Shown here one piece after another: positions 5,024-23,400 of a stretch of 31,537 bases of DNA; position 1 is the first letter of the stretch; every line of letters starts with the position of its first letter. The notes below the pieces were generated by a model, which did no database searches, was not told where the DNA came from, and saw only the letters and a list, made by a program, of their open reading frames with translations. The position numbers and the translations under genes are program-made. The stretch covers positions 1 to 31,537 of the IMG/VR virus record IMGVR_UViG_3300045999_012996. One strand, given 5' to 3'. Source of the DNA: a virus.

Positions 5024-6991
5024 TTATTGCATTTTAGTAGATCCAACATTTAAGGCGGTGCCTACTTTAGTACTATCTAACATTATAGTACCTTCTTTAG
5101 ATAAAATTTGATTTAAAATGGTATTCATTTGATCCATTTTAGCTAATAATGGGCTTAAATCTATTGAAGGTGAAGAAATTGAAGTTTGAGTTTTTCCTTC
5201 TCCACCACCTAAATCAGTTCCTGCTATTACAGTATCTTTATCATTTAATTTAATAGCTCCTTCTGGGGCTAGGAGGGTACGTTTGCCGTATCCTCCTTCT
5301 GACATGACATCATCTCCTTTAAATGCTTGTAAAGCTCCATAAGTTAAAGCACCAGCAGCTAATCCTGCCACTACCGCACCTATAGGTCCAAATAAAAACA
5401 TCCCTGCTAACGCTCCTACCATGGTGCCTATAGCAACAGCTGAAAATTCTAATATCCCCGCTAATTTCTCAGCTGCTCCTGCTAATCTTTCCTGAACTGA
5501 AAGGGCGGTAGCTGCACCTTCGGCTTGTTCAGCTGTTCTATCTGCTGCTTCACCAGCTTGGGAAGCTATACCTTCTTGTTTTCTTAAGGCATCACTTAAT
5601 TCATCAACAGTTAAACCAGCGGCATCTGCTAAAGATTGTTGAGCTATAACATTCATTTGGGCGAACTCAGCTGAACTTCCAACCTGTTTGGCTATTTCAG
5701 CAGCTGCCCCAGCTGTGTCACCCTTTAAAGCTAATAATCTAGCTTGTTCTAGGTTTAGATCTCTACCTGTCAATAATTCAGCTTCTAATTCAGCTTCAAT
5801 ACTTGATTCAAAATCAAGTAATTTACCAGCCATTTTAGCTGTTTGTTCCATATTTAACCCAAGCATTTTAGCTTGAGCTACAGCTTTTACTAGACCACCT
5901 GGTGCTTTTTCAAGATTTAATCTTAAAGCTCCTGATATTTTGTTAGCTTCATCTAATACTTGGCGAGTATTAAACCTCATCCCAAATTCTTTTTCAGCAG
6001 CTACTAAAGTTTCTAATTGAGTATCTTTAAGACTTTCTAAGGATTGACCAGTAGCTAAAGACTGCATAGTCATATTAGCTAGAGATTCTTCAGATAGTTT
6101 AAGTCTTTCTCTTAAGAAAGTAGCTGATTCTAAAAGTTCAGAATCAAATATAATAGCTGTACCTCCTAAAGCGTTATTTAAATCTCCAACTGTTTTAGTT
6201 AAAGTATCAACATTAACTCCTATAGTATTACTAGCTATAGCGGTAGCAGCTAACTCATCATTTAAATTAACAGCTTCAACTTTACTTAAACCTAAATTTC
6301 TTTGAAGATCAGCTGTTCTTGTGTCTATTTTTTTTAAAGCTTCAAAACTCTTTTCTAAAAGAAATGAAAATATATCAGTTGGTTTAATAGCCCCAGCTAT
6401 ATTTTTAGCAAAGTTTTTAGTGACACCAGCTATACCTCCACCACTTGCTCTAGCGTCATCTAAAGCACTCCCAAGTAATTCAGCAGCTTCACCTGTGGCT
6501 CCAAAAGTTTTGAAAAGACCATTAGCTTCTCCAAGCATTCTACCCAGTAACCCAGTGCTGTCAACCATCTCATCATTTTGGTCTCGCAAAGTTCCTAAAA
6601 CAGTTAGTTGGGCATCTAAATTATTTAATAAATTATTCTTTTGTTCATTAGTGAGTCTAACACCATTTCTTTCTAAAACTTCAATTTTTCTTAAAATAAC
6701 TTGTTTTTGCTGTTCAATTTTTTCAATTTCTTTAGCTATATCCTTAGAAGCATTTTGTCCTCTAGTTATTTTATTTATAATCTTATCCTGTTCATTTAAT
6801 GATTTATTAGATATACTAACAGCTCTAGTTAGGTCTTGGCCTAAAGATCTAACTAAAACTTTAGCTGGACCTGTGAGTTGGTCCATAACCCCAGCTATAT
6901 CGGTTTGAAGAGAAGCATTTATACTTTGAAGAGATGAATCAATATCTCTAAAAGAATTTCTTGTTTCATTTAATTCATCATTAATAGCCAT
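5024..6991 (-). CDS. Tail tape-measure protein (gp29 role)
   Basis: A 655-residue protein with tape-measure features. The N-terminal half is helical and rich in Asn, Gln and Lys, with coiled-coil-like stretches near residues 60-145. The middle is Ala/Leu/Glu-rich helix. Residues about 517-553 are strongly hydrophobic and Gly/Ala-rich (GPIGAVVAGLAAGALTYGAL), a typical membrane-insertion segment of tape measures. The C-terminus has KLNDKDTVIAGTD and ends with MLDSTKVGTALN, a pattern common at tape-measure ends. T4 gp29 has 590 residues, so the predicted tail length should be similar to T4 (about 0.15 nm per residue gives roughly 98 nm). It follows the gp26-like gene and its overlapping ORF, where tail-assembly chaperones usually lie. 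A terminator and a promoter-like motif precede it, so it probably heads its own transcript. No SD. Confidence 0.82.
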   Translation of the reverse strand: MAINDELNETRNSFRDIDSSLQSINASLQTDIAGVMDQLTGPAKVLVRSLGQDLTRAVSISNKSLNEQDKIINKITRGQNASKDIAKEIEKIEQQKQVILRKIEVLERNGVRLTNEQKNNLLNNLDAQLTVLGTLRDQNDEMVDSTGLLGRMLGEANGLFKTFGATGEAAELLGSALDDARASGGGIAGVTKNFAKNIAGAIKPTDIFSFLLEKSFEALKKIDTRTADLQRNLGLSKVEAVNLNDELAATAIASNTIGVNVDTLTKTVGDLNNALGGTAIIFDSELLESATFLRERLKLSEESLANMTMQSLATGQSLESLKDTQLETLVAAEKEFGMRFNTRQVLDEANKISGALRLNLEKAPGGLVKAVAQAKMLGLNMEQTAKMAGKLLDFESSIEAELEAELLTGRDLNLEQARLLALKGDTAGAAAEIAKQVGSSAEFAQMNVIAQQSLADAAGLTVDELSDALRKQEGIASQAGEAADRTAEQAEGAATALSVQERLAGAAEKLAGILEFSAVAIGTMVGALAGMFLFGPIGAVVAGLAAGALTYGALQAFKGDDVMSEGGYGKRTLLAPEGAIKLNDKDTVIAGTDLGGGEGKTQTSISSPSIDLSPLLAKMDQMNTILNQILSKEGTIMLDSTKVGTALNVGSTKMQ

Positions 6992-7014: not shown

Positions 7015-7051
7015 TAAAAAAATAAGACCCTTACTTATAAGTAGGGGTCTT
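7015..7051 (-). terminator. Intrinsic terminator after the gp26-like / overlapping ORF pair
   Basis: On the minus strand a hairpin with arms AAGACCC and GGGTCTT, plus an inner TACTTA/TAAGTA pairing, is followed by ATTTTTTTA. The hairpin spans 7024-7051 and overlaps the last codons and stop (7031-7033) of the 107-aa ORF. Confidence 0.85.
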
Positions 7052-7354
7052 TAAAAACTCAGGCGCTTTAATTTTACCTGTAGAGTCTATAATGGTTTTT
7101 TTATTTGGATTTTTAGATTGTTGGGCTTGTTGGGCTTGTTGTTTATCATTATAATATTTATTTATTCTATCAAATGTAAATTTTCTAAGCCAAATGGGCA
7201 TATTATATATAGTTTCCCAATCATATCCTCCTTGCCCATGAAATACTATTTCATGAATTTGAGTGAACAAATTTCTCCTATAGATAATTATCTCCTCAGA
7301 TGTCAGGGTAAAGAAAGCTTGGGCCAATTGGGAGGGGGAGAGGTCCATCTCCAC
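7031..7354 (-). CDS. Overlapping ORF before the tape measure; putative frameshift extension of the gp26-like chaperone
   Basis: This 107-residue ORF overlaps the end of the gp26-like gene by 59 nt in the +1 frame. Conserved-looking features are FHGQGGYDWETIYNMPIWLR followed by KFTFDRINKYYND, a pattern I associate with small proteins beside gp26 in T4-type marine phages, then a Gln/Ala linker and a Lys-rich tail. The nominal start is GTG at 7354, with ATG at 7348; neither has a spaced SD. The frame is open upstream only to a TAA at 7370-7372, so independent initiation or a +1 frameshift from the gp26-like gene are the two options. A frameshift at UUU_UUU_CCC (7359-7367) would give a fusion of about 331 residues. 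The position just before the tape measure matches gpG/gpGT-type chaperones; T4 gp51 is the positional analogue. The function is inferred. Confidence 0.65.
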   Translation of the reverse strand: MEMDLSPSQLAQAFFTLTSEEIIIYRRNLFTQIHEIVFHGQGGYDWETIYNMPIWLRKFTFDRINKYYNDKQQAQQAQQSKNPNKKTIIDSTGKIKAPEFLKTPTYK

Positions 7355-8027
7355 TATCGGGAAAAAAAGTTAAATCAACATCGGGCTGAATTTTAACTAT
7401 GTAATTTCTAAGTTCTCGAGCGTCTTTAGCTAGTAGATAATTATCTACAAATTCTCGTATATCTTTAAGTTCCCTATTTCCTCCTACAGAAGTTAAAATA
7501 TATTTTAATCTAGTAGACCCTTCAGGATTATTTTGATTAATTTTTTTCAAACCTTTTAATTCACTTTGAATTTTCTTTTCATCACCATGAGTTAAAAGTC
7601 TAAAAGTTACATCAGTACCTGTATGAGGTAAAGTATAAGAAAATTCATTTAGACCCTGGGTGAATAAAGACTCGTCAAGAAGTTTGTTTTCTAATTGAGT
7701 TAGGTCAACTGTATGGTTTTCTCCTTTGTAGGTAAATTCATAATCTTTACCATAACCTAAAATACGAGCAGCTATTAAAATAGCATTTTTATCCCCAATT
7801 AGAAGATCATCATAATTAAATTTAGTAATTATAAGTGATTGAAGTAATTTATCAATCATAGTACCATTTTGAATATAAGACTGGTTTGTTAGAATATCTT
7901 CTTCACGAGCAGTCATATATTTCATTTCAATCTTACCAGAAGAAAGAGGATTATCTTTTGGATATAAAAGACCTTTTGAAGGCAGTTCTATAACTTCAGT
8001 GGGTAACTTTAATTTATTAGTTGACAT
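7296..8027 (-). CDS. 26: gp26-like baseplate/tail-assembly protein (T4_baseplate family)
   Basis: A 243-residue protein matching the family of T4 gp26 (Pfam T4_baseplate). The N-terminal signature is ELPSKGLLYP at residues 14-23, followed by GKIEMKYMTAREEDIL (31-46) and a helix with IDKLLQSLII. The middle has a TYKGENHTVDLTQLENKLL segment, then a beta-rich part (YTLPHTGTDVTFRLL) and a Lys-rich region. T4 gp26 has 208 residues, so the length is in range. T4 gp26 is needed for hub assembly, and relatives near tape-measure genes may act as chaperones. The last 20 codons overlap the 107-aa ORF, and the C-terminus (GPLPLPIGPSFLYPDI) looks unlike a conserved domain, as expected if much of the conserved product is made by frameshifting. 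Promoter-like motif copy 3 and a terminator lie just upstream. Confidence 0.75.
   Translation of the reverse strand: MSTNKLKLPTEVIELPSKGLLYPKDNPLSSGKIEMKYMTAREEDILTNQSYIQNGTMIDKLLQSLIITKFNYDDLLIGDKNAILIAARILGYGKDYEFTYKGENHTVDLTQLENKLLDESLFTQGLNEFSYTLPHTGTDVTFRLLTHGDEKKIQSELKGLKKINQNNPEGSTRLKYILTSVGGNRELKDIREFVDNYLLAKDARELRNYIVKIQPDVDLTFFPDSGDGPLPLPIGPSFLYPDI
7359..7368 (-). promoter_or_regulatory. Candidate programmed +1 ribosomal frameshift site
   Basis: The coding strand reads ACT TTT TTT CCC GAT in the gp26-like frame. Phe-tRNA on the second TTT can slip +1 onto TTC, entering the frame of the 107-aa ORF. The same UUU-to-UUC slip drives the influenza PA-X +1 shift. It lies at the very start of the only window where a shift would work, between the +1-frame TAA at 7370-7372 and the gp26-like TGA at 7296-7298. 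A C5 run at 7334-7338 (CTC CCC CTC) is a second candidate. This is an inference from sequence only. Confidence 0.45.
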
Positions 8028-8061: not shown

Positions 8062-8089
8062 TAAAAAAGAGCGCGATAAATCGCGCTCT
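8062..8089 (-). terminator. Intrinsic terminator after the tail-tube gene
   Basis: A perfect 9-bp GC-rich stem (AGAGCGCGA / TCGCGCTCT, 8068-8089) with a 4-nt loop is followed on the minus strand by a run of T. It lies about 20 nt past the stop of the gp19-like gene. Confidence 0.92.
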
Positions 8090-8108: not shown

Positions 8109-8594
8109 TTAGAAATTTAACACACAATAATCAGGTTGAACTGTCATTGTTAAATTAATTATTCCTTCGCTATCCCAATTATACTCACCAAAATTTGACT
8201 CAGTAATTAAAGCTCCTTTAATAATCCATTCAGATACTACATCACCTACAGGACCTAAAACATTAAATGTAAGATCTTTTTTATAGAAATCTGAATAACC
8301 ATCTCTACCAGTTACAGATTCATGATGTAATCTCACCCATTCCATTACTGACTGGGCACCTGAAGGTGTGATGGGGTCAAACAATGTAAAAGCTATAGTA
8401 CTCCATTTTGTTCTACCTTTTACAAATCTTTGAATGTTAATATGATTGAGTTCAAGAGCTCCTTGTGTTACTGTTATAGCACCAACAGCTTTTACTAAGT
8501 AACTAGGAAATCCATCCATATACATAATAAATCTATTTTGCTGTTTGGGTTCAAACGGTGTGAAAAATATTTCGTTTGGATCTAGTACTGCCAT
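8109..8594 (-). CDS. 19: Tail tube protein (gp19-like)
   Basis: At 161 residues it is almost the length of T4 gp19 (163) and shows the Phage_T4_gp19 pattern: NRFIMYMDGFPSYLVKAVG near the N-terminus, then the GRTKWSTIAFTLFDPI strand pair, WVRLHHESVTGRDGYSDFYK, and a C-terminal WIIKGALITESNFGEYNWDS followed by a final strand ending near the C-terminus. These proteins stack as hexamers to form the inner tail tube around the tape measure. It lies directly after the sheath gene, as in T4. A promoter-like motif ends 13 nt before its ATG and a strong terminator follows, so it may have its own highly expressed transcript, which suits a protein needed in many copies. No SD. Confidence 0.93.
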   Translation of the reverse strand: MAVLDPNEIFFTPFEPKQQNRFIMYMDGFPSYLVKAVGAITVTQGALELNHINIQRFVKGRTKWSTIAFTLFDPITPSGAQSVMEWVRLHHESVTGRDGYSDFYKKDLTFNVLGPVGDVVSEWIIKGALITESNFGEYNWDSEGIINLTMTVQPDYCVLNF

Positions 8595-8638: not shown

Positions 8639-10726
8639 TTAGGCTGGGAACTCAGCTCCTGTTGGTAATACATTGAAATCAAGTACTATAAATTCAGCTG
8701 TTCTAGTTGGTTGGATAAAAATCTGGCCAACTAACTGATTTCTATCAATTACATCAGGAGTATTATTTGAGTCATCCATGACAACTTTAAAGGCGTACAC
8801 ACCTTGTCTTTGTTGAACACTTTCAAGATATGGATTAACTTGAGCTAAGAATGAATTTCTTGTAGCAGCTGTATTTTGTTCAAATACTAAGTTATTAGCT
8901 ACTTGGCCAATAAAGCTCTTAAGTTCAATCAACAATCTTCTAACATTAACTCTGTCAAGAGCACTAGCTTTTCTTTGTAGTGTTTTCTGACCAAATACTG
9001 CGGGGCCTGTAGCAGGGAATGTAGCTATTGGGTTTACATTATCTTCATATAATGTATCTCTTTCTGATCTTTGGAGCTTTCTTTCAGGTCTAATGACTTG
9101 AGCTAACCCTCCTCTGTTTATACCCGCTGGGGCAAACCAAGGCTCAGCTGAAGCATCATTAGCGGCATAAACACCTGGGATTAAGGTTGAAGCAGGTACC
9201 CAATTGATTTTTCCAGTATCAGGATTAAAGATTTGAGCCCATGGCCAGTATGTGGCAGCATAACTAGAATTAAAATTCCCAGCTTGTGTTGTAGTCTCAC
9301 TTATAGTAGCCCCATATCTTACTAAGTCAACAACTGCTATAGCGTCTCCTCTATTTTGTGTGTTAGTAACAAGAATACCTAAAGGACTAGCGTGGTATTC
9401 ATTTAATAAGCCAGGTGCTGTTATTACTTTATAAGAATATTCTTCTTTATTAGCTAACAAACTAAGAGCTGTAGTGTATGAAGCAGCTACTAAACCTTGG
9501 GTATTAGCATTTATATCTTCATAAAAATTATTTGTAGTTGATAGGATATTACCTGTACCTCCAGTAAATGAACCGCTACCTAAAACAGGAATAGAAGTTG
9601 TATATTCAGCTTTAGCTGTTCCATTATTATCAAAATAATTAGGAGTAGGAGTTACAGAAGCTACATAAACATAATTGCTATTATTTGGATAGTTTCCTAC
9701 TGATTGAACATAAGTGTTATCATCAGAATCAGTTACTACTTGTTGGTAAGTATCACCAATTATTTTAGCTATATAATTATCCTGTTCAGGATCTAAAGAT
9801 ATATTAGCAAATGTTTCAAGAATAACCTTTTCATTAGTCACATCATCTCCTCTTCTAATTAATAAAGTAAATGTACCTGAACCTGTGTTAGCTTGTGAAA
9901 TTTCCCATCTAACATTGTCTGAAGTTCCATTTGTTAAAGCCCCAGCTGAGTTTTCAGATCCACTACTATTCATAATAGTTCCTTCTGATATAGTCTTAAG
10001 GGTAAAAGCAGCGTTTCCAATGGTATCAACTCCCCCTGCTAATGTAATTTGGGTAGCTGCTGTGCCTAAGAATAGATCAGAGAAAGAACCAGTTGCTACT
10101 GTAATACCATTACCAGAAGTTCCATTAAATGAAGCTGAAATACTGAAAGTATTACTACTAAAGGAAGCACTAAAATAGGCTGAAGCGTTAGTATTAATTT
10201 CACTAACTAAACCACTTAACCCAGCGGTAGAATACCAATAATAATTTGAAGCAGGAACATCAGTTCCTGAACCTGAGAAGAAGTAGTAATTAGCATTATT
10301 ATAAGTAAGTCTGACTCCTACTGGGCCAAATGTAGATGAATTTCCAACATTAATAAATGTAAATGATCCTGTAGCAGGTTTGCCAGTTACTGTAGGTACA
10401 TTATTTTGAGGGGTAGTACTTGTAGCTGAGGTCCAATCTGCTGATCTACTAACCACTCTAGTTACTAATAAAGTAGTACCACCATTTTGGAAATAGTTAT
10501 AAGCAGAAATTGAAGTAAGGTAAGAGTAAGTTTGGTTTCCACTAACAAAAGTAGTACCAAATTTATTAACATACTGACTGTATGAAGTTACTACAGTAGG
10601 AATTTCAACTGGTCCTTTAACTGTAGGACCAACAATAGCGGCACCTACTTGTACCGGTTGTTGAGTTATAAATGACTGGTCATTTTCTCTTGTGAATACA
10701 CCAGGTGATACTATTTGTTCTGCCAT
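8639..10726 (-). CDS. 18: Contractile tail sheath protein (gp18-like)
   Basis: A 695-residue tail sheath protein (T4 gp18 has 659). The N-terminus EQIVSPGVFTRENDQSF is the sheath opening that forms the inter-subunit handshake, followed by AAIVGPTVKGP. The C-terminal third has the family's GINRGGLAQVIRPERKLQRS, a helix with RRLLIELKSFIGQVANNLVF, and a final strand TAEFIVLDFNVLPTGAEFP. Residues about 119-234 form a Ser/Thr/Asn-rich beta insertion whose pattern recurs in the degenerate subtilase of this window. Sheath subunits surround the tube and contract on infection. The upstream leader lacks a full AATATTTATA motif and has no SD; transcription may come from the double motif before the 83-aa gene. 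Confidence 0.95.
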   Translation of the reverse strand: MAEQIVSPGVFTRENDQSFITQQPVQVGAAIVGPTVKGPVEIPTVVTSYSQYVNKFGTTFVSGNQTYSYLTSISAYNYFQNGGTTLLVTRVVSRSADWTSATSTTPQNNVPTVTGKPATGSFTFINVGNSSTFGPVGVRLTYNNANYYFFSGSGTDVPASNYYWYSTAGLSGLVSEINTNASAYFSASFSSNTFSISASFNGTSGNGITVATGSFSDLFLGTAATQITLAGGVDTIGNAAFTLKTISEGTIMNSSGSENSAGALTNGTSDNVRWEISQANTGSGTFTLLIRRGDDVTNEKVILETFANISLDPEQDNYIAKIIGDTYQQVVTDSDDNTYVQSVGNYPNNSNYVYVASVTPTPNYFDNNGTAKAEYTTSIPVLGSGSFTGGTGNILSTTNNFYEDINANTQGLVAASYTTALSLLANKEEYSYKVITAPGLLNEYHASPLGILVTNTQNRGDAIAVVDLVRYGATISETTTQAGNFNSSYAATYWPWAQIFNPDTGKINWVPASTLIPGVYAANDASAEPWFAPAGINRGGLAQVIRPERKLQRSERDTLYEDNVNPIATFPATGPAVFGQKTLQRKASALDRVNVRRLLIELKSFIGQVANNLVFEQNTAATRNSFLAQVNPYLESVQQRQGVYAFKVVMDDSNNTPDVIDRNQLVGQIFIQPTRTAEFIVLDFNVLPTGAEFPA
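10025..10372 (-). repeat. Beta-rich module inserted in the sheath, shared with the degenerate subtilase
   Basis: This encodes sheath residues about 119-234. Its landmarks NYYWYS, LVSEIN, YFSASFSSNTFSIS, ATGSFSDLFL and a closing GGV recur in the same order in the 815-aa protein (16860-17225) as NYWKWN, LINAIN, YFTASYNNNILSIT, YTGSINDFLL and GGV. It is a protein-level similarity seen by eye. Confidence 0.6.
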
Positions 10727-13601: not shown

Positions 13602-15707
13602 TTAAGTAATAGTGAGTGGGTTAACTTTAGTAAAAGGCCAATGAAGTATTTTGTTAGAAGATCCAAACAAACTTATACTACGCATAGCATTATAAGGCTG
13701 ATTAATATAAAAACTTCCTGTAAAATCTGTTCCTTTGTTTAAAGCATCATCATCAAAAACTCTTAATCTAGGATCTTTAGGAGCATAATGTTCCAAAAAA
13801 TTTCTAAAATCATCAACAGTAGCCGCTAGGTTCATTTGGAAATATAAACAAGCCACCCCCGCTACTTGAGGAGAAGAAAATGAAGTACCATTAGTTATAC
13901 CCATCCTCCATGAAGTACCTGTGTAAGAGGAATCATATATAGAGTAAAATCGGGGATTGGTATTATTATAAACACTATTATAGGGACCACCTGGGTAAAC
14001 ATTAGCTGGTAGGGCTATAGGGATATTTTCCCCAGCAGCAAATATTTCCACAGCTGGGCCTATAACTGAAAAGCCTGAGATAACTAAAGAGGCTGAATTG
14101 TAAGCTTCTTCCCACCCTGGGAAGGGGTCACCAACGCCATATCCAAGTTTAGATTGGGGATCATTTTGAGGAAGAGTCCAATTTATTACATCACCATGAT
14201 CATAAGAAGGAATAGGGATATCAAAATTATCTGTATAATACCATTGTTTTACAGGGCCAAAAATATTAAAAGGAATAGTTCCTGAGATTGGGGTTTTGGG
14301 AAAAATTAAATGTGGACTTAAAGACCCTACACTTATTACTCCTGGGTTTTCTTTTGGGCTTCCTGCTCTATTAGAATACTTCCATTTTTCTCTTCCCCTA
14401 AGGCCTAGATATACACCTAAATCTGTTCCGGGCATAGGCACTACATAAGAATCATATATACGAGATTCATTCTCACGGGATATAATCTCACAAGTATTCC
14501 CAGCTGCTGCTATCATAATTACTCCTTCAGCTAAACAACCAGATACTAAGTTTTTAAAAAGATCATATTCTTGTTCAAAATAACAAGATGTAGGGGCTTC
14601 AATACCAATAGCGTAACTATCACTTTGGCTTGTTTTTAATCGTATTTGATAATCAATACTAGGTATATTATCATCACCACTCCATCCTAAAGAAGAAGAT
14701 AAAGAAACAGTTCCCTTATACATAAAATCTTGAACCCCTGGAGTGTAGCCTGTAGCTGGGTTTTTATTTAGGATAGCTGTAAAAAAACCAAAACTCATAT
14801 TAACTATTGTTGGTCTTTTTACTTTAGTAATAGGATCAATAGATTTATTTTGATGAAATCTTTTAATAGCTACAAAACCCTCAGCGGGGCTAATCCCCTT
14901 ATTATAAAATCCATCATCACTACTATAAGGACCTGTTTTTAAGTCATATATAGTAGCTCCTTTAGCCCACCCATTTAACCTCCCAGCCGCTACTGAGGCT
15001 ACACCAGTACCGTGAGGATAAACAATAGAAGTATCATAATATCGAGGAGGAAGAGAAGAATTTCCATGAGATGCTAATAAAAGATCTCCTATCACTTCAG
15101 ACCAATCATATAAAACTACCCTTGTATTACCATTTTTATCTAAAAATTCAGGATGGTTATAATCAATTCCACTATCCATTATTATTAAGTCTACCCCAGT
15201 ACCATCTAAAGTATAAGTATAGTCTTCATTATAAAATGTATAACTTTGAGGGGTATAAGAAGAAGTTAAGCTTTTAGTTTTTAACCAATCAATATTAGTT
15301 TTAGCGGTATGCCATTGTAATCCCCAATTTATAGCGGGGCAGGTATCATCAAATATACTGGAGCTAAAATCCCCAGAGTAATTCCATCTAGGATTAGTTG
15401 TAAAATTACTAGTTTGAGTAGCTAAAAGAAAAGGTTCAAATGTTATATTAGGTGGGGGTTCTTCCACACTCAAAACATCAGGGTTTTTTCTTACTTGATT
15501 ATATTCTTCATCAGTTAAATCATAAAGTAAAAAAGGAACATCAGGAGCGGTATAATTTATAGACTTAGTAATAATTCTATCTGGGTAATATTCTCTAATA
15601 ATTTCATTTTCTTGGATTGTGTCTTTTCCCATATAATAATCTATATTTTCTTTTTTTACCCCCGGCTGGGGATTTACTACTAATCTATAGTAAGTATTAT
15701 CAGCCAT
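13602..15707 (-). CDS. Subtilisin-like serine protease (peptidase S8) with intact triad
   Basis: A 701-residue S8-family protease. Catalytic Asp178 lies in GVDLIIMDSGIDYNHPEF, His232 in YPHGTGVASVAAGR, the oxyanion Asn404 in IAAAGNTCE, and Ser609 in NGTSFSSPQVAGVA, so all catalytic positions are present. Residues about 35-85 resemble an I9-type propeptide ending (LTDEEYNQVRKNPDVLSVEE), which suggests autoprocessing. I see no signal peptide, as expected for a virion protein. It lies between the fibre and neck genes. Possible roles are digestion of host surface proteins by the virion, or processing of phage structural proteins; the context favours a virion-associated enzyme, but this is inference. 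The stop of its paralogue is 6 nt upstream. Confidence 0.9.
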   Translation of the reverse strand: MADNTYYRLVVNPQPGVKKENIDYYMGKDTIQENEIIREYYPDRIITKSINYTAPDVPFLLYDLTDEEYNQVRKNPDVLSVEEPPPNITFEPFLLATQTSNFTTNPRWNYSGDFSSSIFDDTCPAINWGLQWHTAKTNIDWLKTKSLTSSYTPQSYTFYNEDYTYTLDGTGVDLIIMDSGIDYNHPEFLDKNGNTRVVLYDWSEVIGDLLLASHGNSSLPPRYYDTSIVYPHGTGVASVAAGRLNGWAKGATIYDLKTGPYSSDDGFYNKGISPAEGFVAIKRFHQNKSIDPITKVKRPTIVNMSFGFFTAILNKNPATGYTPGVQDFMYKGTVSLSSSLGWSGDDNIPSIDYQIRLKTSQSDSYAIGIEAPTSCYFEQEYDLFKNLVSGCLAEGVIMIAAAGNTCEIISRENESRIYDSYVVPMPGTDLGVYLGLRGREKWKYSNRAGSPKENPGVISVGSLSPHLIFPKTPISGTIPFNIFGPVKQWYYTDNFDIPIPSYDHGDVINWTLPQNDPQSKLGYGVGDPFPGWEEAYNSASLVISGFSVIGPAVEIFAAGENIPIALPANVYPGGPYNSVYNNTNPRFYSIYDSSYTGTSWRMGITNGTSFSSPQVAGVACLYFQMNLAATVDDFRNFLEHYAPKDPRLRVFDDDALNKGTDFTGSFYINQPYNAMRSISLFGSSNKILHWPFTKVNPLTIT

Positions 15708-15713
15708 AATTTT

Positions 15714-18161
15714 TTAAGATTTAGTTATTTGAATATTAGAAAATGTAGCTTGATTAGGTGTTAATCCATAAGGATTATGTAAAATTCCCCCATCTCTACC
15801 TCCTAAATAAGTAGTGCCTGTTCTTCTATATGAATCATAATACTGACCATTTGAGGCTGAGTAATCATAACGATATAAGAAGGGTAAATTATTATTGTTA
15901 ATAATTACTTTATTTGAATTTTCATAAAGCCAATTTCTAACCTGTTTAAGATCAGCCCCAGGGTTTATTTGAAGATAAAGAGCTATTATCCCTGTTGTTA
16001 TAGCGGCAGCGCCTGAAGAGCCTAGGCTATTTAGAATCCCTGTAGTAGTGTCAAATAAAGGACCATTTGATGTCTTTAAACTCTGACTTAAATAAGGGAC
16101 AGTTAAGAATAAATTATTAACACTAGCTGTATTAAAATTAATAGATTTATATAAAGGATGAGACGAAGAATAATACATAAAACTTCCCTCACTCAACCCA
16201 GAGTTAAAAGTTGTAATCCCCCCTCCTCCTACATAAACATCAACCCCAGGACCTCTTACTGTATAATTAGTCCCATTTATATACCATCTAGGAGATGTAT
16301 CATCAAAAGTATAACGGTCTGGATTTAAAGTTAGGTTTAATTCACTAGCCTGAATTGAAGTATAATTATTATAATCCCCTGTACATAGTACACGATATGG
16401 AGTATTAGGTTGAGGGGGAGATTTTAGATCTAAAGGCACATCAGGAGAATATTCAATGTAAGTATCCCATAAATCTTGAGAAAAATATTTTGAATCATAA
16501 AAAGGATTATCAGGATCTGAGTCTAAAGACTCATTAGTTGTATAATGGCTATGATTACCAGCTGATTTGACAAGTATTACACCTGCTTGAGCTAGTTCTA
16601 ACATAGCTGTTTTAACAGCAGTAGTGTTTGGTAAAGAAGACCCATTAAACTCAAAATTATCTATAGCTCTAAATTTAAAGATAGAATCAATTAAAGGATC
16701 AAAAAGATAGTTAGCTGTGTTTAATCCTCGATCAATACCATAAGGATCATAAGGAGGATGTTCAGTAAAACCATATTCACATTTAGGAATACCATTATTT
16801 CCTCCTTCATAAACAGTTTGTCCTTTTGTTACTATTTTAGATATATTAGTTTTAGATAAAACTCCTCCAGACACTTCACAAATAAATGAACCTCCTTTTC
16901 CTGAGGGTAAAAGAAAATCATTAATAGATCCTGTATATATTTTTATAGGGGTGTAATAATTATATGAAGAAGTTATACTTAAGATGTTATTATTATAACT
17001 AGCTGTGAAATAACCACTAGAGTTAATAGCATTGATTAATCCTACACTTATAGATGAGGTAAAATTATACCGGTTCCATTTCCAATAATTACCATCAGGT
17101 ATTAAGAAAGAATCAAAATTTCCTGATGAAGTTGTTAAGTTAGATGAAGATATAAAAAAGAGATCAGGCCCAACATGAGCTATTCTTATACCATCATTAG
17201 GTTTAATGTTAGTTAGTTCAAAAGACCCACTAACCTTACTCCCAGTTTCAAAAGCACTTAAAGCGTAAAAAGTAAATCCTCTAAAACTTTGATTGACAAT
17301 AGTCGGACGTTTATATCCTGTGTTAAGGTTAATAGATTTTGAAGTATGAAAATTTTTTATAATATTTAATTCTCTAACTATAGAATTTTCTAATCCATTT
17401 TTTAAAAAATAAATATTAGCATTTTTAGCTACACCTGAAGTTAGCCCAGCGGCTAAGCTAGCCATAACCATACCATGTTGATAGGTTGAACTAGTTGTAT
17501 TTTTATAGTAGGAACCACTTATTGAATCATAAGATCCTTTACTAGTAACATAATCTCTCCAAGAAATATATTGGATTCTACATTCACCATCTAAGTTATA
17601 AAATTCAGCATGTTTATGAAAAAAACCATCATTAAAACTTTCAAAAATAATTATATCTACTCCAGTGCCATCTAATTTATAATTATAAGAAGAAGTATAT
17701 ACAAAAGAAGCTGGAATACTTGTATTAGTATCTGTTAAACCTCCTATAAGATTCATAGTTTTAGATCCTAAAGATCCTGAAAATGCTTGGTCTTTGGGTA
17801 GAGAATGGTATTTTAGATGAGTAGGGTAAGGAGGTAAAGGTTCATTTAATGAAGGACTTGGATATAATCTAAAATTTCCCCTAATAGAACCTTCATCAAC
17901 TGACTCAGTAGGAAAAAGAGAAAGATCTTCAATAGCTAAAATATTAGGATCTGAAGTTAAGTTTCTTACTTCATCTTCTGTTAAGAAATAAGAACCTATT
18001 CTTTCAAAAGAACCTAAAAAACTAGCCGTTACAACCCTATCAGGAAACCATTCATTTTCATATGATGGTCTAGTATTAGAAGGAGTTTTAAAAATAGTAT
18101 CAATATCTTTAATTTTATAATTTCTTACTGTAGTTATATAATATTCTTTTAACTCACTCAT
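15714..18161 (-). CDS. Degenerate subtilisin-like paralogue (probable pseudoprotease) with inserted beta module
   Basis: An 815-residue paralogue of the neighbouring protease. The N-terminal 80 residues match in order (WFPDRVVTASF, FLTEDEVRNLTSDPNILAIE). The Asp site reads GVDIIIFESFND, so Glu174 replaces the catalytic Asp. His229 is kept but as QHGMVMAS instead of HGTG. Asn536 is kept (VKSAGNHSH). Ser716 is kept in GSSGAAAITTG, but the usual SxP proline is gone. Loss of the Asp and altered glycine motifs point to low or no protease activity. Residues about 313-434 are an insertion not present in the paralogue and similar to the sheath insertion. The likely role is structural or binding, derived by duplication. 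It follows the large fibre gene by 22 nt. Confidence 0.8.
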   Translation of the reverse strand: MSELKEYYITTVRNYKIKDIDTIFKTPSNTRPSYENEWFPDRVVTASFLGSFERIGSYFLTEDEVRNLTSDPNILAIEDLSLFPTESVDEGSIRGNFRLYPSPSLNEPLPPYPTHLKYHSLPKDQAFSGSLGSKTMNLIGGLTDTNTSIPASFVYTSSYNYKLDGTGVDIIIFESFNDGFFHKHAEFYNLDGECRIQYISWRDYVTSKGSYDSISGSYYKNTTSSTYQHGMVMASLAAGLTSGVAKNANIYFLKNGLENSIVRELNIIKNFHTSKSINLNTGYKRPTIVNQSFRGFTFYALSAFETGSKVSGSFELTNIKPNDGIRIAHVGPDLFFISSSNLTTSSGNFDSFLIPDGNYWKWNRYNFTSSISVGLINAINSSGYFTASYNNNILSITSSYNYYTPIKIYTGSINDFLLPSGKGGSFICEVSGGVLSKTNISKIVTKGQTVYEGGNNGIPKCEYGFTEHPPYDPYGIDRGLNTANYLFDPLIDSIFKFRAIDNFEFNGSSLPNTTAVKTAMLELAQAGVILVKSAGNHSHYTTNESLDSDPDNPFYDSKYFSQDLWDTYIEYSPDVPLDLKSPPQPNTPYRVLCTGDYNNYTSIQASELNLTLNPDRYTFDDTSPRWYINGTNYTVRGPGVDVYVGGGGITTFNSGLSEGSFMYYSSSHPLYKSINFNTASVNNLFLTVPYLSQSLKTSNGPLFDTTTGILNSLGSSGAAAITTGIIALYLQINPGADLKQVRNWLYENSNKVIINNNNLPFLYRYDYSASNGQYYDSYRRTGTTYLGGRDGGILHNPYGLTPNQATFSNIQITKS
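16860..17225 (-). repeat. Sheath-like beta module inserted in the degenerate subtilase
   Basis: This encodes residues about 313-434 of the 815-aa protein and matches the sheath insertion (10025-10372) in landmark order: NYWKWN, LINAIN, YFTASYNNNILSIT, YTGSINDFLL, GGV. The adjacent active paralogue lacks it. Confidence 0.6.
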
Positions 18162-18183: not shown

Positions 18184-21100
18184 TTAATGAAAGGCAACCC
18201 AAACTCCATTAGCATAACCAAAAAACTTATATTGTTCTGAATCATATACTATATCTCCGTTTTGGGGACTAATAATAGATCCTGTTGTAGTTGGAACTAA
18301 TCTTAAAACTGGACTTTGAATTACAACAGCGTTGCTAGCACTTAGATTTAAGTTAGTATCTGATGTGATAGTAGGTATACCTGTACCTGTTAAAACAAAA
18401 TCATCAGCTGATATTGTATCTGTAGTTGTGATACTACCTGATATATTGAGTGATCCTGTTAGGGAAGCTATATTATTAGAACCATTAAAGGTGAAATTAT
18501 TAGACCCACCAAAAACCCCAGCATTATTATACTGAATAGTATTAAAATTTCCACCAGGAGTTCCACTTCCCCCTCCACCTCCAAAAGCGTTAGCTCCTGT
18601 TATAAATAGTTGACCTGTAGTATTATCAAAAGTTACAACATGTTGTTTAGGAGTTGTTTGGTTTATTAACCCTTTTAAATAAAGCTCAGAACTTCCTATT
18701 TGATTAAAAGAACCTGTTAAAGCTAAACTACCTGTAATACGAGTTGAACCTGTTATTATTAAACTACCTGATATAATAGCTGAGCCAGTGTATGGGAAAT
18801 CTGATCCACCACTCCCTCCCCCACTTCCTGTATTAACAGTAATAGGAAAAGTTGAACCATCACCTTTTGTAAAGGTGATAGTATTTAAAGTGACAGAAGC
18901 AGTTAAGAGATTTCTAGAAGCTAAAGAAGAACTAATTGAGTTAGTAGCCCAAGAAGCTGTTCCAAACAGAGAACCAGTAATTCCGCTACTAGCACTAACT
19001 ATAGAGGCTGTGATTGGAATATTTGTACTAGCTCCATTTTGAGTTACTGACTGTAAATTACCTATACCTGAAGTTAGAGAGGCTAAAGAAGAAGAAACAC
19101 TTGGGTATCCTTTAATAGAAAGATCACCACTAGCACTAATATTAGCACTAGCTGTTATATTTCTAGCAACTAAATCTGTTGTAAGAGAAGGTGTAAAACC
19201 TCCTCCTCCACCACCTACAACATTAAAAGCCCAAGAAGCTGTACCAAATAAAGAACCAGTGATTCCACTACTAGCACTAATTATAGAAGCTGTTACATTA
19301 TTAGTGGCGTATATAGAACCTGTAAGTTTTAATTCTCCTAATTGAGATGAAAAACTAAGTTTAGGATTTTTATATAAAGTAGAAACAGCTGAAGTTCCTC
19401 CATCCCATATTAAAGGATAAAAATCTCCTAAAGTAATTTCTGTTACCTTTGTTCGATCTGAAGATATAGCATTAGTAGCCCAACTTGAAGTACCAATTAA
19501 ACTTCCACTAGTGACAGTTATAGATCCAATTGAATTTAAAGAACCAGTTATATTTAAAGAACCTGTAAGGTTTAATCTACCATCACTAATACTAGTACCT
19601 GGAATAAATGTTAAATTACTATGTGAACTTCTAAAGATTGTATTCCCTGAGCCAAAAACTATTGGGAATGAGGTAGTACTACCAGCTGAGCCTACTATAA
19701 CAGAGGTGGCAGTACCAAATAATGATCCTGTTATTCTACTAGCACTAATTATAGAAGCTGTTATATTATTAGTAATATTTAAAGAACCAGTTATATTTAA
19801 AGAACCTGTAATTCTTAGCGATCCTGAGATGGTAAGGTCATTAGTGATATATAAATTTTTAGTACTTAAAAGTTCAGAACTTGGGACATAAACTAAATTC
19901 CCACCAGGAAAGTCATAAAGGTTATCACTACTTCTTATAACTAAATTATAGGTTCCTGCTGAGCTTTGGTTTAATGATGTAATATTAACTGTGTTAGCTT
20001 TTCCAACAGTCATTGAACCAGTATAGTCATTTAAAACAAAGGAACTAGTTTGGGTGTTTGGAACAAACGAGCTAGTTTGAGTATTTTGGACAAAACTTGA
20101 GGTTTGAGTGTTTTGAACAAAACTAGAAGTTTGAGTGTTTTGAACAAACGAGCTAGTTTGAGAACTAAACACAACATTTCCTTCCCCAGTTTTACTAATA
20201 TTACCTCCACTTATTATTAAAGAGCCAGTTAAAATAATATTATTATTATTGAAAATAAAATTATCTGATCCAGCTAGTTCACCACTATTATTATATTGGA
20301 TAGTTTTATTAGATCCAGCGGCTCCACCTCCACCCCCACTTCCTCCAAAAGCACTAGCCCCAGTTATAAAAAGTTGGCCTGTAGTATTATTGAAGGTTAC
20401 AACATGAGAAGCTGGGGTTGTTTGGTCAATTAACCCTTTTAAGAAGATTTCAGAACTCCCTATTTGACTGAGGGAGCCAGTTAAATTTAAGCTACCTGTA
20501 ATAAGGGCAGATCCTGTGTAAGGGAATTTAACAAATGAGCTAGTTTGATTGTTTTGAACAAAACTAGAAGTTTGGGTATTTTGAACAAATGAACTAGTTT
20601 GGTTGTTTTGAACAAAACTTGAAGTTTGGGTATTTTGAACAAATGAGCTAGTTTGATTGTTTTGGACAAATGAACTAGTTTGATTATTTCTAATAAATGA
20701 GCTAGTTTGAGAATTAACTATAAAACTTGAAGTTTGAGAATTTAGCACATAAGGTGCTAACATTGAACTAGTATAGTCATTTAAAACAAATGAACTAGTT
20801 TGATTGTTTTGAACAAAACTAGAGGTTTGGTTGTTTTGAACAAATGAGCTAGTTTGATTGTTTTGAACAAAACTTGAAGTTTGGGCATTTTGAACAAATG
20901 AACTAGTTTGAGAATTTAGCACATAAGGTGCTAACATTGAACTAGTATAGTCATTTAAAACAAATGAACTAGTTTGATTGTTTTGAACAAAACTTGAAGT
21001 TTGGGTATTTTGAACAAATGAGCTAGTTTGATTGTTTTGAACAAAACTTGAAGTTTGGGCATTTTGAACAAATGAACTAGTTTGAGAATTTGGTACATAA

Positions 21101-22602
21101 GAAGATAGTTGGGAATTAAATACAACATTCCCTTCTCCAGTTTTACTAATATTACCTCCACTTATTATTAAAGAACCAGTTAATAAAACAGTATCAGTAC
21201 CATTAAAAGTAAAACTATTAGACCCCCCAAAAGCCCCAGCATTATTATATTGAATAGTGGTTGAAACTCCACCAGGAGTTCCACTTCCTCCTCCACCTCC
21301 CCCAAAAGCACTAGCCCCTGTTATATATAATTTTCCGGTAGCATTATCAAAGGTTACAACATGTTGTTGAGGAGATGTTTGATTGATTAATCCCTTTAAG
21401 AAAAGTTCAGAACTTCCTATTTGACTAAAAGAACCTGTTAAAACTAAACTACCTGTGATAAAAGCAGATCCTGTATATGGAAAACTCGAACCTCCTCCTC
21501 CACCACTCCCAGTGTCAACAGTAATACTAAACTCAGTAGCATTACCTTTTGTAAAGGTAATAGTATTTAAAGTGACAGAAGCAGTAACTAAAAAACTTGA
21601 GGTTTGACTATTTTGAACAAAACTTGAGGTTTGGGTATTTTGAACAAAAGAACTAGTTTGAGAATTAACTACAAAACTTGAAGTTTGGTCATTTTGAACA
21701 AAAGAACTAGTTTGATTGTTTTGAACAAAACTAGAGGTTTGGTTGTTTTGAACAAATGAACTAGTTTGAGAACTTTGAATAAAACTTGAAGTTTGAGTGT
21801 TTTGAACAAAACTTGAAGTTTGGTCATTTTGAACAAAAGAACTAGTTTGGCTGTTTAGAACATAGTTAGGAGCAAATGAAGCTGTTAAAGCGTTAGTAGC
21901 CCAACTTGAAGTGCCAAATAAAGAACTTGTTATTTGTGAAGCAGATACAATTGAAGAAGTTATAGAGGGAGCTAGTAGTCTATTTACAACTCTCACTCTA
22001 CCGCTAGTTATTAATAACTCTTCATTGTAAAAGCCAGTAGTAGAATTAAGTATATCTACTTCAAATTCATTTTTATTATGCTGAAGTAATGTACCAAGAC
22101 CTCCAATATCTTCTCCTGTTGAGACTTGAAATCCTTGAGGTACATGGATAATAAAATCTTGAGTAGAACTGCTTTTATAAGATACCAACTCAGTATCACC
22201 TATTTTTAAAAAATTAAAATTATTAGATAATAAGTTAGAAGAACTTATTAAAAGTCCTGAACCTGTTACAGGGCGGGTGGTAGTTACATAATAACCAATA
22301 TTGTAAGTATCAGTGTATATATTTGAATTTCCTTTCCCAGTTAAAATAACTCCACCACTAACCTGTAAACTTCCTGTAATTTTAGCTATACCATTATTAA
22401 TCCCATCAGGAATAAAAGGAAAACCACTCCCAGGATCTCCTTTAGGCCCTATAGGACCAGGAGCACCCATAGAAGTAACTTCTATAATTTTATTAGATGG
22501 GGATTGAGTTATATTTACAGTGTTACCATCTTGGGTAAGGATTTGAATTATATTATAATCAGCTCCTCCAATTGTATTAACTGTATTATTATTGTTAGCC
22601 AT
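18184..22602 (-). CDS. Large repetitive tail fibre protein with collagen-like start and nine-residue repeats
   Basis: A 1472-residue fibre. Residues 46-60 are Gly-X-Y collagen-like (GAPGPIGPKGDPGSG), preceded by NKIIEV, which matches the start of the 1174-aa fibre. Three arrays of a nine-residue repeat (consensus NxQTSSFVQ) follow at residues 250-338, 496-691 and 813-860, about 34 copies. A module of about 120 residues (FPYTGSA to NVVF) occurs three times. Other stretches repeat ITASIISAS-GITGSLFGTASWATN. The C-terminus (ISPQNGDIVYDSEQYKFFGY, then WVAF) is a common phage-fibre ending. The protein is extremely rich in Ser, Thr, Asn and Gly, as in trimeric beta-structured fibres. It is probably a receptor-binding long fibre; no chaperone or peptidase domain is visible. 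Confidence 0.88.
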   Translation of the reverse strand: MANNNNTVNTIGGADYNIIQILTQDGNTVNITQSPSNKIIEVTSMGAPGPIGPKGDPGSGFPFIPDGINNGIAKITGSLQVSGGVILTGKGNSNIYTDTYNIGYYVTTTRPVTGSGLLISSSNLLSNNFNFLKIGDTELVSYKSSSTQDFIIHVPQGFQVSTGEDIGGLGTLLQHNKNEFEVDILNSTTGFYNEELLITSGRVRVVNRLLAPSITSSIVSASQITSSLFGTSSWATNALTASFAPNYVLNSQTSSFVQNDQTSSFVQNTQTSSFIQSSQTSSFVQNNQTSSFVQNNQTSSFVQNDQTSSFVVNSQTSSFVQNTQTSSFVQNSQTSSFLVTASVTLNTITFTKGNATEFSITVDTGSGGGGGSSFPYTGSAFITGSLVLTGSFSQIGSSELFLKGLINQTSPQQHVVTFDNATGKLYITGASAFGGGGGGSGTPGGVSTTIQYNNAGAFGGSNSFTFNGTDTVLLTGSLIISGGNISKTGEGNVVFNSQLSSYVPNSQTSSFVQNAQTSSFVQNNQTSSFVQNTQTSSFVQNNQTSSFVLNDYTSSMLAPYVLNSQTSSFVQNAQTSSFVQNNQTSSFVQNNQTSSFVQNNQTSSFVLNDYTSSMLAPYVLNSQTSSFIVNSQTSSFIRNNQTSSFVQNNQTSSFVQNTQTSSFVQNNQTSSFVQNTQTSSFVQNNQTSSFVKFPYTGSALITGSLNLTGSLSQIGSSEIFLKGLIDQTTPASHVVTFNNTTGQLFITGASAFGGSGGGGGAAGSNKTIQYNNSGELAGSDNFIFNNNNIILTGSLIISGGNISKTGEGNVVFSSQTSSFVQNTQTSSFVQNTQTSSFVQNTQTSSFVPNTQTSSFVLNDYTGSMTVGKANTVNITSLNQSSAGTYNLVIRSSDNLYDFPGGNLVYVPSSELLSTKNLYITNDLTISGSLRITGSLNITGSLNITNNITASIISASRITGSLFGTATSVIVGSAGSTTSFPIVFGSGNTIFRSSHSNLTFIPGTSISDGRLNLTGSLNITGSLNSIGSITVTSGSLIGTSSWATNAISSDRTKVTEITLGDFYPLIWDGGTSAVSTLYKNPKLSFSSQLGELKLTGSIYATNNVTASIISASSGITGSLFGTASWAFNVVGGGGGGFTPSLTTDLVARNITASANISASGDLSIKGYPSVSSSLASLTSGIGNLQSVTQNGASTNIPITASIVSASSGITGSLFGTASWATNSISSSLASRNLLTASVTLNTITFTKGDGSTFPITVNTGSGGGSGGSDFPYTGSAIISGSLIITGSTRITGSLALTGSFNQIGSSELYLKGLINQTTPKQHVVTFDNTTGQLFITGANAFGGGGGSGTPGGNFNTIQYNNAGVFGGSNNFTFNGSNNIASLTGSLNISGSITTTDTISADDFVLTGTGIPTITSDTNLNLSASNAVVIQSPVLRLVPTTTGSIISPQNGDIVYDSEQYKFFGYANGVWVAFH
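18433..18798 (-). repeat. Fibre module, third copy (FPYTGSA module)
   Basis: Residues about 1269-1390 of the 1472-aa fibre repeat the module at 20167-20526 and 21118-21483, with shared landmarks GSSELYLKGLINQTTP, HVVTFDNTTGQLFITGA, a poly-Gly linker and TIQYNNAG. Confidence 0.8.
20023..20166 (-). repeat. Nine-residue (27-nt) repeat array C in the fibre
   Basis: Five in-frame copies of xxQTSSFV, ending with NDYTGSM. Confidence 0.9.
20167..20526 (-). repeat. Fibre module, second copy (FPYTGSA module)
   Basis: Residues about 693-812; shares GSSEIFLKGLIDQTTP, HVVTFNNTTGQLFITGASAF, a poly-Gly linker, TIQYNNSG and SGGNISKTGEGNVVF with the first copy. Confidence 0.85.
20530..21117 (-). repeat. Nine-residue (27-nt) repeat array B in the fibre
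   Basis: About 19 in-frame copies of NxQTSSFVQ, interrupted twice by NDYTSSMLAPYVL. It includes a near-exact 174-bp tandem duplication. Confidence 0.92.
20743..21090 (-). repeat. 174-bp tandem duplication inside array B
   Basis: Units 20917-21090 and 20743-20916 each encode 58 residues made of five nine-mers plus NDYTSSMLAPYVL. A 90-nt stretch is identical at 20731-20820 and 20905-20994 (offset 174), and the rest differs at only a few positions. Confidence 0.9.
21118..21483 (-). repeat. Fibre module, first copy (FPYTGSA module)
   Basis: Residues about 374-495 of the 1472-aa fibre: GSSELFLKGLINQTSP, HVVTFDNATGKLYITGASAF, a poly-Gly linker, TIQYNNAG and SGGNISKTGEGNVVF. Confidence 0.85.
21589..21855 (-). 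repeat. Nine-residue (27-nt) repeat array A in the fibre
   Basis: Ten consecutive in-frame copies of NxQTSSFVQ (residues 250-338), starting right after a SSWATNALTASFAPN segment. Confidence 0.92.
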
Positions 22603-22620: not shown

Positions 22621-23400
22621 TTAAGGAGCAGGTCTTATAGCAAATTGACGAGCTTGAATACCATCATTAACTTGGGCTGTGAAAATTACATCTAAAGATG
22701 GGCCTGAAAGAGGTATGTTTTTGGTAATCCATCCACATGATAGGTTAGCCCCTGTAGTACCTACTTCAGCTTGTTGGCCTGGGGGGATTGTAGAGGGCCA
22801 ACCAGAACCATTAGGAGTAAAAGGTTCACCATCACCTCCATCAAAAGTGACTCCGGCAAATACTAAACAATTATCTACAGGAGTATTTAAAGATGAAGCT
22901 GTTATAAAGGTTGATGTATTTTGAGATAAACTACCTAAAGTAATAGGATTTGTTTGGTCTGCTCCTGGTATTCTAATATACCATACAGCTATGTCAGCAA
23001 AAGGAGCCGCTATAGAATCTAAATCTATATTTACATTTCCTTCAGAACCGTTTGATATTTTATAAAATAGAGTAGTCTCAATATCATAAACATCACTATA
23101 ATCTGAAAAGGAAGAAGTCCATCCTGAAGGGAGAGAAAATAATTGAGTAGTTATTATATTATCAGCATGACAATATAATAATAATAAATCTCCAGATTGT
23201 ATATTAGTAGGAGCTGAAGCAGAAATACTGGCTGAAGGTACATTGGGCATTTGAGCAGTTGAAAGAAAATAACTACCAACCTGTAAATTTCCCCCAGCTG
23301 GGACTTCTATTCCTCCAAAATTTGTTATACTATTTATTGGGATTTCTATATATTTTGATAGTTGCCCCCACTCAATTCCATTAAAAGAATAAATTGGCAT
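22621..23400 (-). CDS. Putative tail-fibre-associated adhesin or accessory protein
   Basis: A 259-residue, beta-rich protein. From residue about 55 onward it follows the pattern of jelly-roll accessory domains on phage tails: IQSGDLLLLYCHAD, then LPSGWTSSFSDYSD, LFYKISNGSEGNVNI, WYIRIPGADQTNPI and a final strand RQFAIRPAP. The first 45 residues (IYSFNGIEWGQLSKYIEIP) look like a separate attachment segment. I recognise the general architecture but not a named family or enzyme motif. Its start overlaps the stop of the 1174-aa fibre by one base (TAATG), so translation is coupled, and it precedes the large fibre by 18 nt. A receptor-binding or fibre-tip role is inferred from context. Confidence 0.6.
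   Translation of the reverse strand: MPIYSFNGIEWGQLSKYIEIPINSITNFGGIEVPAGGNLQVGSYFLSTAQMPNVPSASISASAPTNIQSGDLLLLYCHADNIITTQLFSLPSGWTSSFSDYSDVYDIETTLFYKISNGSEGNVNIDLDSIAAPFADIAVWYIRIPGADQTNPITLGSLSQNTSTFITASSLNTPVDNCLVFAGVTFDGGDGEPFTPNGSGWPSTIPPGQQAEVGTTGANLSCGWITKNIPLSGPSLDVIFTAQVNDGIQARQFAIRPAP

Follow-up and report, generated by a model that had tools for sequence, protein, structure and literature searches.

Two overlapping reading frames lie between the tail tube gene and the probable tape measure gene of a T4-like phage. Are they two genes, or a single gene whose long product requires a ribosomal frameshift, and if so, where and in which direction would ribosomes shift? The window is the whole stretch of DNA analysed here, 31,537 nt (positions 1 to 31,537 of IMG/VR record IMGVR_UViG_3300045999_012996). 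The surrounding contig is that of a T4-like myovirus, as it encodes a Gp23 capsid protein (E 9e-72) as well as a sheath and a tube protein. The gene order is sheath, tube, tail assembly chaperone (TAC) and probable tape measure. The same order is found in phage immuto, where the gene at the equivalent place is annotated as tape measure. The relevant features are as follows.

8639..10726, minus strand: tail sheath protein (PF04984, E 6e-13; phrog_23, E 2e-75)
8109..8594, minus strand: tail tube protein, encoded ahead of the chaperone gene (phrog_4542, E 1.5e-22)
8027-7296, minus strand: ORF 1 (TAC-N), 243 aa, ATG to TGA, with the TGA at 7298-7296
7354-7031, minus strand: ORF 2 (TAC-C), 107 aa, GTG start
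7031..8027, minus strand: predicted fusion TAC-NC, 331 aa; in T4 gp51 a single ORF holds the two domains in this order
5024..6991, minus strand: probable tape measure protein, encoded after the chaperone gene, named from its position and a weak PhageMin_Tail match (E 0.014)

A hairpin (AAGACCCCTACTTATAAGTAAGGGTCTT, 7022-7060) occupies the gap after TAC-C, and another (AGAGCGCGATAAATCGCGCTCT, 8068-8089), placed on the plus strand by the terminator scan, the gap before TAC-N. As there are hairpins in both flanking gaps, the chaperone gene may be transcribed as a unit by itself. The tail block also contains two adjoining genes for subtilisin-like (Peptidase_S8) proteins (13602-18161, minus strand). 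Genes at 18184-22602 and 23400-26924 (minus strand) encode very long proteins rich in QTSSFVQN-type repeats. These repeat-rich proteins are probably fibre proteins, and the number of their repeats may vary.

The original prediction joined the gp26-like protein to the next ORF by a +1 frameshift. When both sets of coordinates were re-derived, the ORFs indeed overlapped by 59 nt, with the second in the +1 frame. Upstream, the +1 frame is closed by a TAA at 7372-7370, after which 74 nt are open to the end of the TGA, in agreement with the expected stretch of about 75 nt between these two stops. The fusion would have the 331 residues originally given, a length that is the same for any +1 site.

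TAC-N is homologous to a recognised TAC family. It matched phrog_150 (baseplate hub) with E 7e-11 and Pfam PF12322 with E 7e-5, just below the family cut-off. In the phrog_150 profile of 282 positions, T4 gp51 spans 3-281 and T4 gp26 only 10-236, and thus gp26 is the short form and gp51 the long form. This agrees with a published study, as cited in two later papers (PMC10274946, PMC12846349), in which gp26 and gp51 of T4 were recognised as the TAC-N and TAC-NC forms of a tail assembly chaperone. The view that T4 makes gp26 and gp51 apart therefore needs qualification: their genes are separate and on opposite strands, but they are not two halves, as gp51 alone comprises TAC-N plus TAC-C. In Campylobacter phage NCTC12673, further PF12322 matches directly follow the gp26-like gene, which suggests a two-gene solution as in T4.

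TAC-N and TAC-C were folded separately. The best solved-structure matches to the TAC-N model (pLDDT 90) covered residues 1-94 and were YqbN (3klu, Z 6.2) and the HK97 TAC (2ob9, Z 5.1). These top two entries are both TACs or TAC-like, though the Z scores are modest, and with a Foldseek E of 0.4 the support for a TAC fold is modest as well. A sequence search of the PDB returned no match. TAC-C, modelled with pLDDT 74, was compared with its counterparts from five phages that carry it in the -1 frame together with the C-terminus of T4 gp51, which gave an hhalign probability of 96.2 (E 2.8e-9). The dN/dS ratio was about 0.36 for TAC-C (153 loci) and 0.33 for TAC-N, with pairs partly saturated, indicating purifying selection.

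We then considered the register in relatives. Loci were collected by TAC-N alone, so the register of the second ORF was not selected for. There were 234 loci with enough flank, and these comprised 187 distinct junctions, 123 from near relatives (clade A) and 64 from the next clade (clade B). In 233/234 loci the +1 frame was open for at least 120 nt past the TAC-N stop, and in the single exception (L075) it was open for 76 nt. As 233/234 loci keep an open +1 frame, the overlap is more than chance. TAC-C itself was in the +1 frame in 233/234 loci, which bears out the predicted direction. The 234 loci did not place the second ORF in the -1 frame; the few that were open there were also open in +1. 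TAC-C is likewise in the +1 frame in immuto, Mel-JY01, SP-15, LIS04, SagM-GXN1, RM378 and the uncultured phage LR756508. Scans queried with the gp26 proteins of SP-15, LR756508 and RM378 returned only those records themselves, or nothing. Judged from homology and reading frames, the two ORFs very likely form one tail assembly chaperone gene with a predicted long form made by +1 frameshifting.

The place of the frame change is marked by a conserved motif near the end of TAC-N, with the following features.

7359..7367, minus strand: T7C3 (TTT TTT CCC), the earlier proposed site, not the conserved shift site
7316-7308, minus strand: predicted +1 slip site, UUU CUU UAC; UUU UUU UGG in relatives
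7302..7307, minus strand: dual-coded 3' context CCT GAC, Pro-Asp in frame 0 and Leu-Thr in +1
7296..7298, minus strand: TGA of TAC-N, the seventh codon counting from the slip codon
7034..7315, minus strand: TAC-C domain in the +1 frame (FFTLTSEE...), 94 codons from the slip Phe, with the stop at 7033-7031

With its 3' codon, the window site reads TTT CTT TAC CCT (7316-7305), and the consensus in relatives is UUU UUU UGG CCU. The conserved site starts at 7316, 51 nt downstream of T7C3. The exact sequence TTTTTTTGGCCT was present in 199/234 loci and TTT/CTT-N-TTT in 234/234; the remaining loci had TTT TTT TAT/TAC/TTC CCT, TTT CTT TGG/TAC CCT, CTT TTT TGG CCT, TTT ATT TAC CCT or single variants. 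The UUU codon (F238) is invariant among 11 gp26 proteins with 21-69% identity. Across the 187 distinct junctions, this TTT is invariant and the next base is T or C in nearly all, the exception being L004.

Three lines of evidence place the shift at this motif. In 18/187 distinct junctions, a +1 stop closes 2 nt ahead of the TTT TTT T run (counted to its first T), and in others 8, 20 or 29 nt ahead of it. On the other side, all 187 junctions have the end of the TAC-N stop 18-39 nt past the beginning of the slip codon, most often at 21 nt (118 junctions). Codon periodicity also switches at the motif. Before it, the mean information at codon positions 1, 2 and 3 was 0.69, 0.88 and 0.24, as expected for frame 0. 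After it, the values in frame-0 numbering were 0.45, 0.54 and 0.83, which is frame +1, as position 3 is then +1 position 2. Finally, synonymous choice is nearly fixed at the site: CCT accounts for 48/48 Pro codons there versus 41% in the gene family (182/183 in a second count), GAC for 46/47 Asp codons versus 26%, and TTT for 49/49 and 45/45 at the two slip-site positions versus 88%. Within the gene, few synonymous positions are as constrained as the five slip-site codons. Together, the +1 stops, the periodicity switch and the invariant synonymous positions strongly support a predicted shift seven codons before the TAC-N stop. Gene order, homology, the +1 register, the position of the frame change and selection on both frames can all be read from the sequence.

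How might ribosomes change frame here? Normal decoding would yield TAC-N of 243 aa. Some ribosomes would step one base forward on UUU-U/C (or CUU-U) and continue in the +1 frame, yielding TAC-NC of 331 aa. The P site would hold tRNA-Phe, or here alternatively tRNA-Leu, with a slower sense codon (UGG, UAC or UAU) in the A site; few codons of the window are UGG or UAC (7.9 and 8.6 per 1000, respectively). The window site offers two options: tRNA-Phe could slip from UUU to UUC at 7316-7314, or tRNA-Leu from CUU to UUU at 7313-7311 in a prfB-like manner. Natural sites of these kinds are known (PMC5009743): prfB slips on CUU_U or, in some of its genes, on UUU_U, and PA-X slips on UUU_C. The +1 re-pairing rule fits every site but L004 (TTT ATT TAC), where re-pairing would be poor, and this site and that of the window deviate from the consensus. 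Phe-tRNA slippage on a UUU codon, originally proposed as the likely chemistry, fits the conserved UUU site. The slip itself we infer, as we do ribosomal slippage as the mechanism, its efficiency, the tRNA that slips and the roles of the two chaperone forms. No stable RNA structure was found at the site (window z 0.22), and no Rfam family scored above its own gathering score. Nor does the site form a prfB-type cassette, as there is no AGGGGG-like Shine-Dalgarno spur at the window site and the A-site codon (UGG, UAC or UAU) is not a stop.

By analogy, TAC-NC would be the counterpart of lambda gpGT and T4 gp51, TAC-N would coat the tape measure protein, and tail tube subunits would be brought in by the TAC-C part. 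The comparison with gpG/gpGT that was first suggested holds up.

Other explanations for the frame change can be weighed against these observations. T7C3 was found exactly where the original prediction had put it (7367-7359), where the open +1 stretch begins on its upstream side. Its Pro codon (7359-7361 here) and the homologous clade A codons are CCC in 32/39 cases, versus about 13% of Pro codons elsewhere in the gene family. Comparison with relatives, which upheld the +1 register (233/234 loci), did not uphold this site: T7C3 is present in 48/123 near-relative and 0/64 clade B distinct junctions, and thus missing in 75/123 and 64/64. In many loci there are also +1 stops between the T7C3 position and the start of TAC-C, and frame-0 periodicity runs past T7C3 to the downstream motif. 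This absence from most relatives, the later +1 stops and the periodicity refute T7C3 as the general site, and we see almost no chance that the frame shifts there. TAC-C could instead be a separate gene, expressed by coupled re-initiation at a start codon within the overlap. ORF 2 of the window could be opened in the +1 frame by a GTG (7354) or an ATG (7348), and a TTG 11 nt ahead of the slip is frequent in clade A (76/123). However, the start codon is conserved neither in type nor in place, and 47/187 distinct junctions have no +1-frame ATG, GTG or TTG upstream of the slip, which led us to reject separate starts as a general mechanism. There is even no start until 20 codons past the slip in 28/187 junctions, yet the conserved TAC-C sequence FFGLT begins at the slip Phe itself. 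A start codon would also leave the invariant TTT TTT TGG CCT and the exact point of the frame change unexplained, and the long form in T4, gp51, is one chain. We therefore regard re-initiation as very improbable.

A frameshift at the conserved site could also be a shift of -2 rather than +1. Both give an identical register, and a run of seven U permits -2 re-pairing, so the two look the same by sequence there. The TAC of phage Mu uses a -2 shift, which counts in favour of this possibility. It is nevertheless unlikely, as -2 re-pairing would be poor or absent at the sites of SagM-GXN1 (TTC TTT CGT), LR756508 (TTT CTA TTC) and L004 (TTT ATT TAC), whereas the first two allow perfect +1 re-pairing. 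The run of seven T at the site in most relatives might further suggest that RNA polymerase slips on it and thereby makes the frame change. A run of at least seven T is lacking, however, in the window (TTTCTTTA), in L004 (TTTATTTA), in L079 and immuto (TTTCTTTG), in SP-15 (T6) and in SagM-GXN1 (TTCTTTC). As these sites have no long T run, transcriptional slippage was rejected, and we hold it to be extremely unlikely. A +1 step of the ribosome at the conserved UUU codon is thus the reading that we prefer.

In other T4-like groups, the homologous TAC-C domain lies in the opposite, -1 frame. In cyanophage-like loci, TAC-C is in the -1 frame in 78/78, with the motif T TTT TTC. It is also in -1 in S-PM2, HTVC008M, Cr30, phiM12 and phiW-14, where T TTT TTC or a longer run of T typically precedes it, and in Ah1, ACP17, Mendera, phi-Grn1, SD25, K351, 2050H1 and Melnitz-3. 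The -1 members comprise cyanophage-like, alphaproteobacterial, Vibrio and Aeromonas groups, and the +1 lineage comprises phages of Flavobacterium, Rhodothermus, Microcystis, Bacillus, Listeria and Streptococcus. Both kinds have the two homologous domains, the place before the tape measure gene and a Phe-Phe U run at the junction. They differ in that TAC-C is in the -1 frame with T TTT TTC in the former and in the +1 frame with UUU UUU UGG CCU here. When TAC-N sequences were placed in a tree, a branch supported at 100/100 split the -1 from the +1 members, LR756511 alone excepted, whose place is unsure. As this -1 member falls inside the +1 group, the free tree needs two changes of direction, and a single +1 clade was not rejected (p-AU 0.56). 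LR756511 is a 595-kb phage record that combines a TAC-N on the +1 side with a TAC-C in -1 and an unusually long overlap. On this unrooted tree, the simplest reading would be one deep reversal of direction. It is probable that the direction of frameshifting reversed within one homologous family at the same Phe-Phe U run, with UGG CCU as the conserved forward-slip signal.

To our knowledge, nearly all known TAC frameshifts are -1. Lambda gpG/gpGT and P2 E/E+E' share with this locus a short and an extended chaperone, an overlap where the first ORF ends and a place before the tape measure gene. Their shift is -1 and here it would be +1, and the link to them here is the structural match to the HK97 TAC only. 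In lambda, neither chaperone product is present in the mature virion (PMC5009743). In T4, the short and long forms come from separate genes, unlike the one gene with a predicted frameshift found here. Frameshifting in T4-like TACs has been described as a -1 shift on poly-T (Vladimirov, Gautam and Davidson 2022, Virology 566:9; as cited in PMC12846349). Our literature search, in which that study was covered through citing papers, found no account of +1 shifts in gp26-family TACs. The TAC of the haloarchaeal myovirus HSTV-2 was the only one named as probably +1 in a 2016 review (PMC5009743). Its short ORF ends TCC TTT CGC, which would allow a TTT-C slip, and the length of the annotated joined gene fits one skipped base. 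Like our locus, HSTV-2 has a TAC gene that lies between those for tail tube and tape measure and is extended, probably by a +1 shift; it is a single record, with U3C rather than U7GG. Among other +1 systems, prfB (RF2) slips on CUU_U, and TTT CTT T in the window holds the same CUU to UUU forward slip. Influenza PA-X (UCC_UUU_CGU) slips from UUU to UUC, and SagM-GXN1 reads TTC TTT CGT. Unlike those systems, the site described here has neither an A-site stop nor a Shine-Dalgarno stimulator, and its product would be a two-form structural chaperone instead of an autoregulated protein or a host shut-off factor.

The gp26 family thus contains a large natural +1 class that shares its gene family and codon pair with -1 members. 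This would provide matched natural sequences for asking what sends the ribosome forward or back on a U run. The predicted frameshift also corrects the annotation of TAC-C, which in immuto, SP-15 and LIS04 is listed as a short hypothetical protein or left unannotated, and it singles out T4-like phages that are expected to produce TAC-NC with no separate gene 51.
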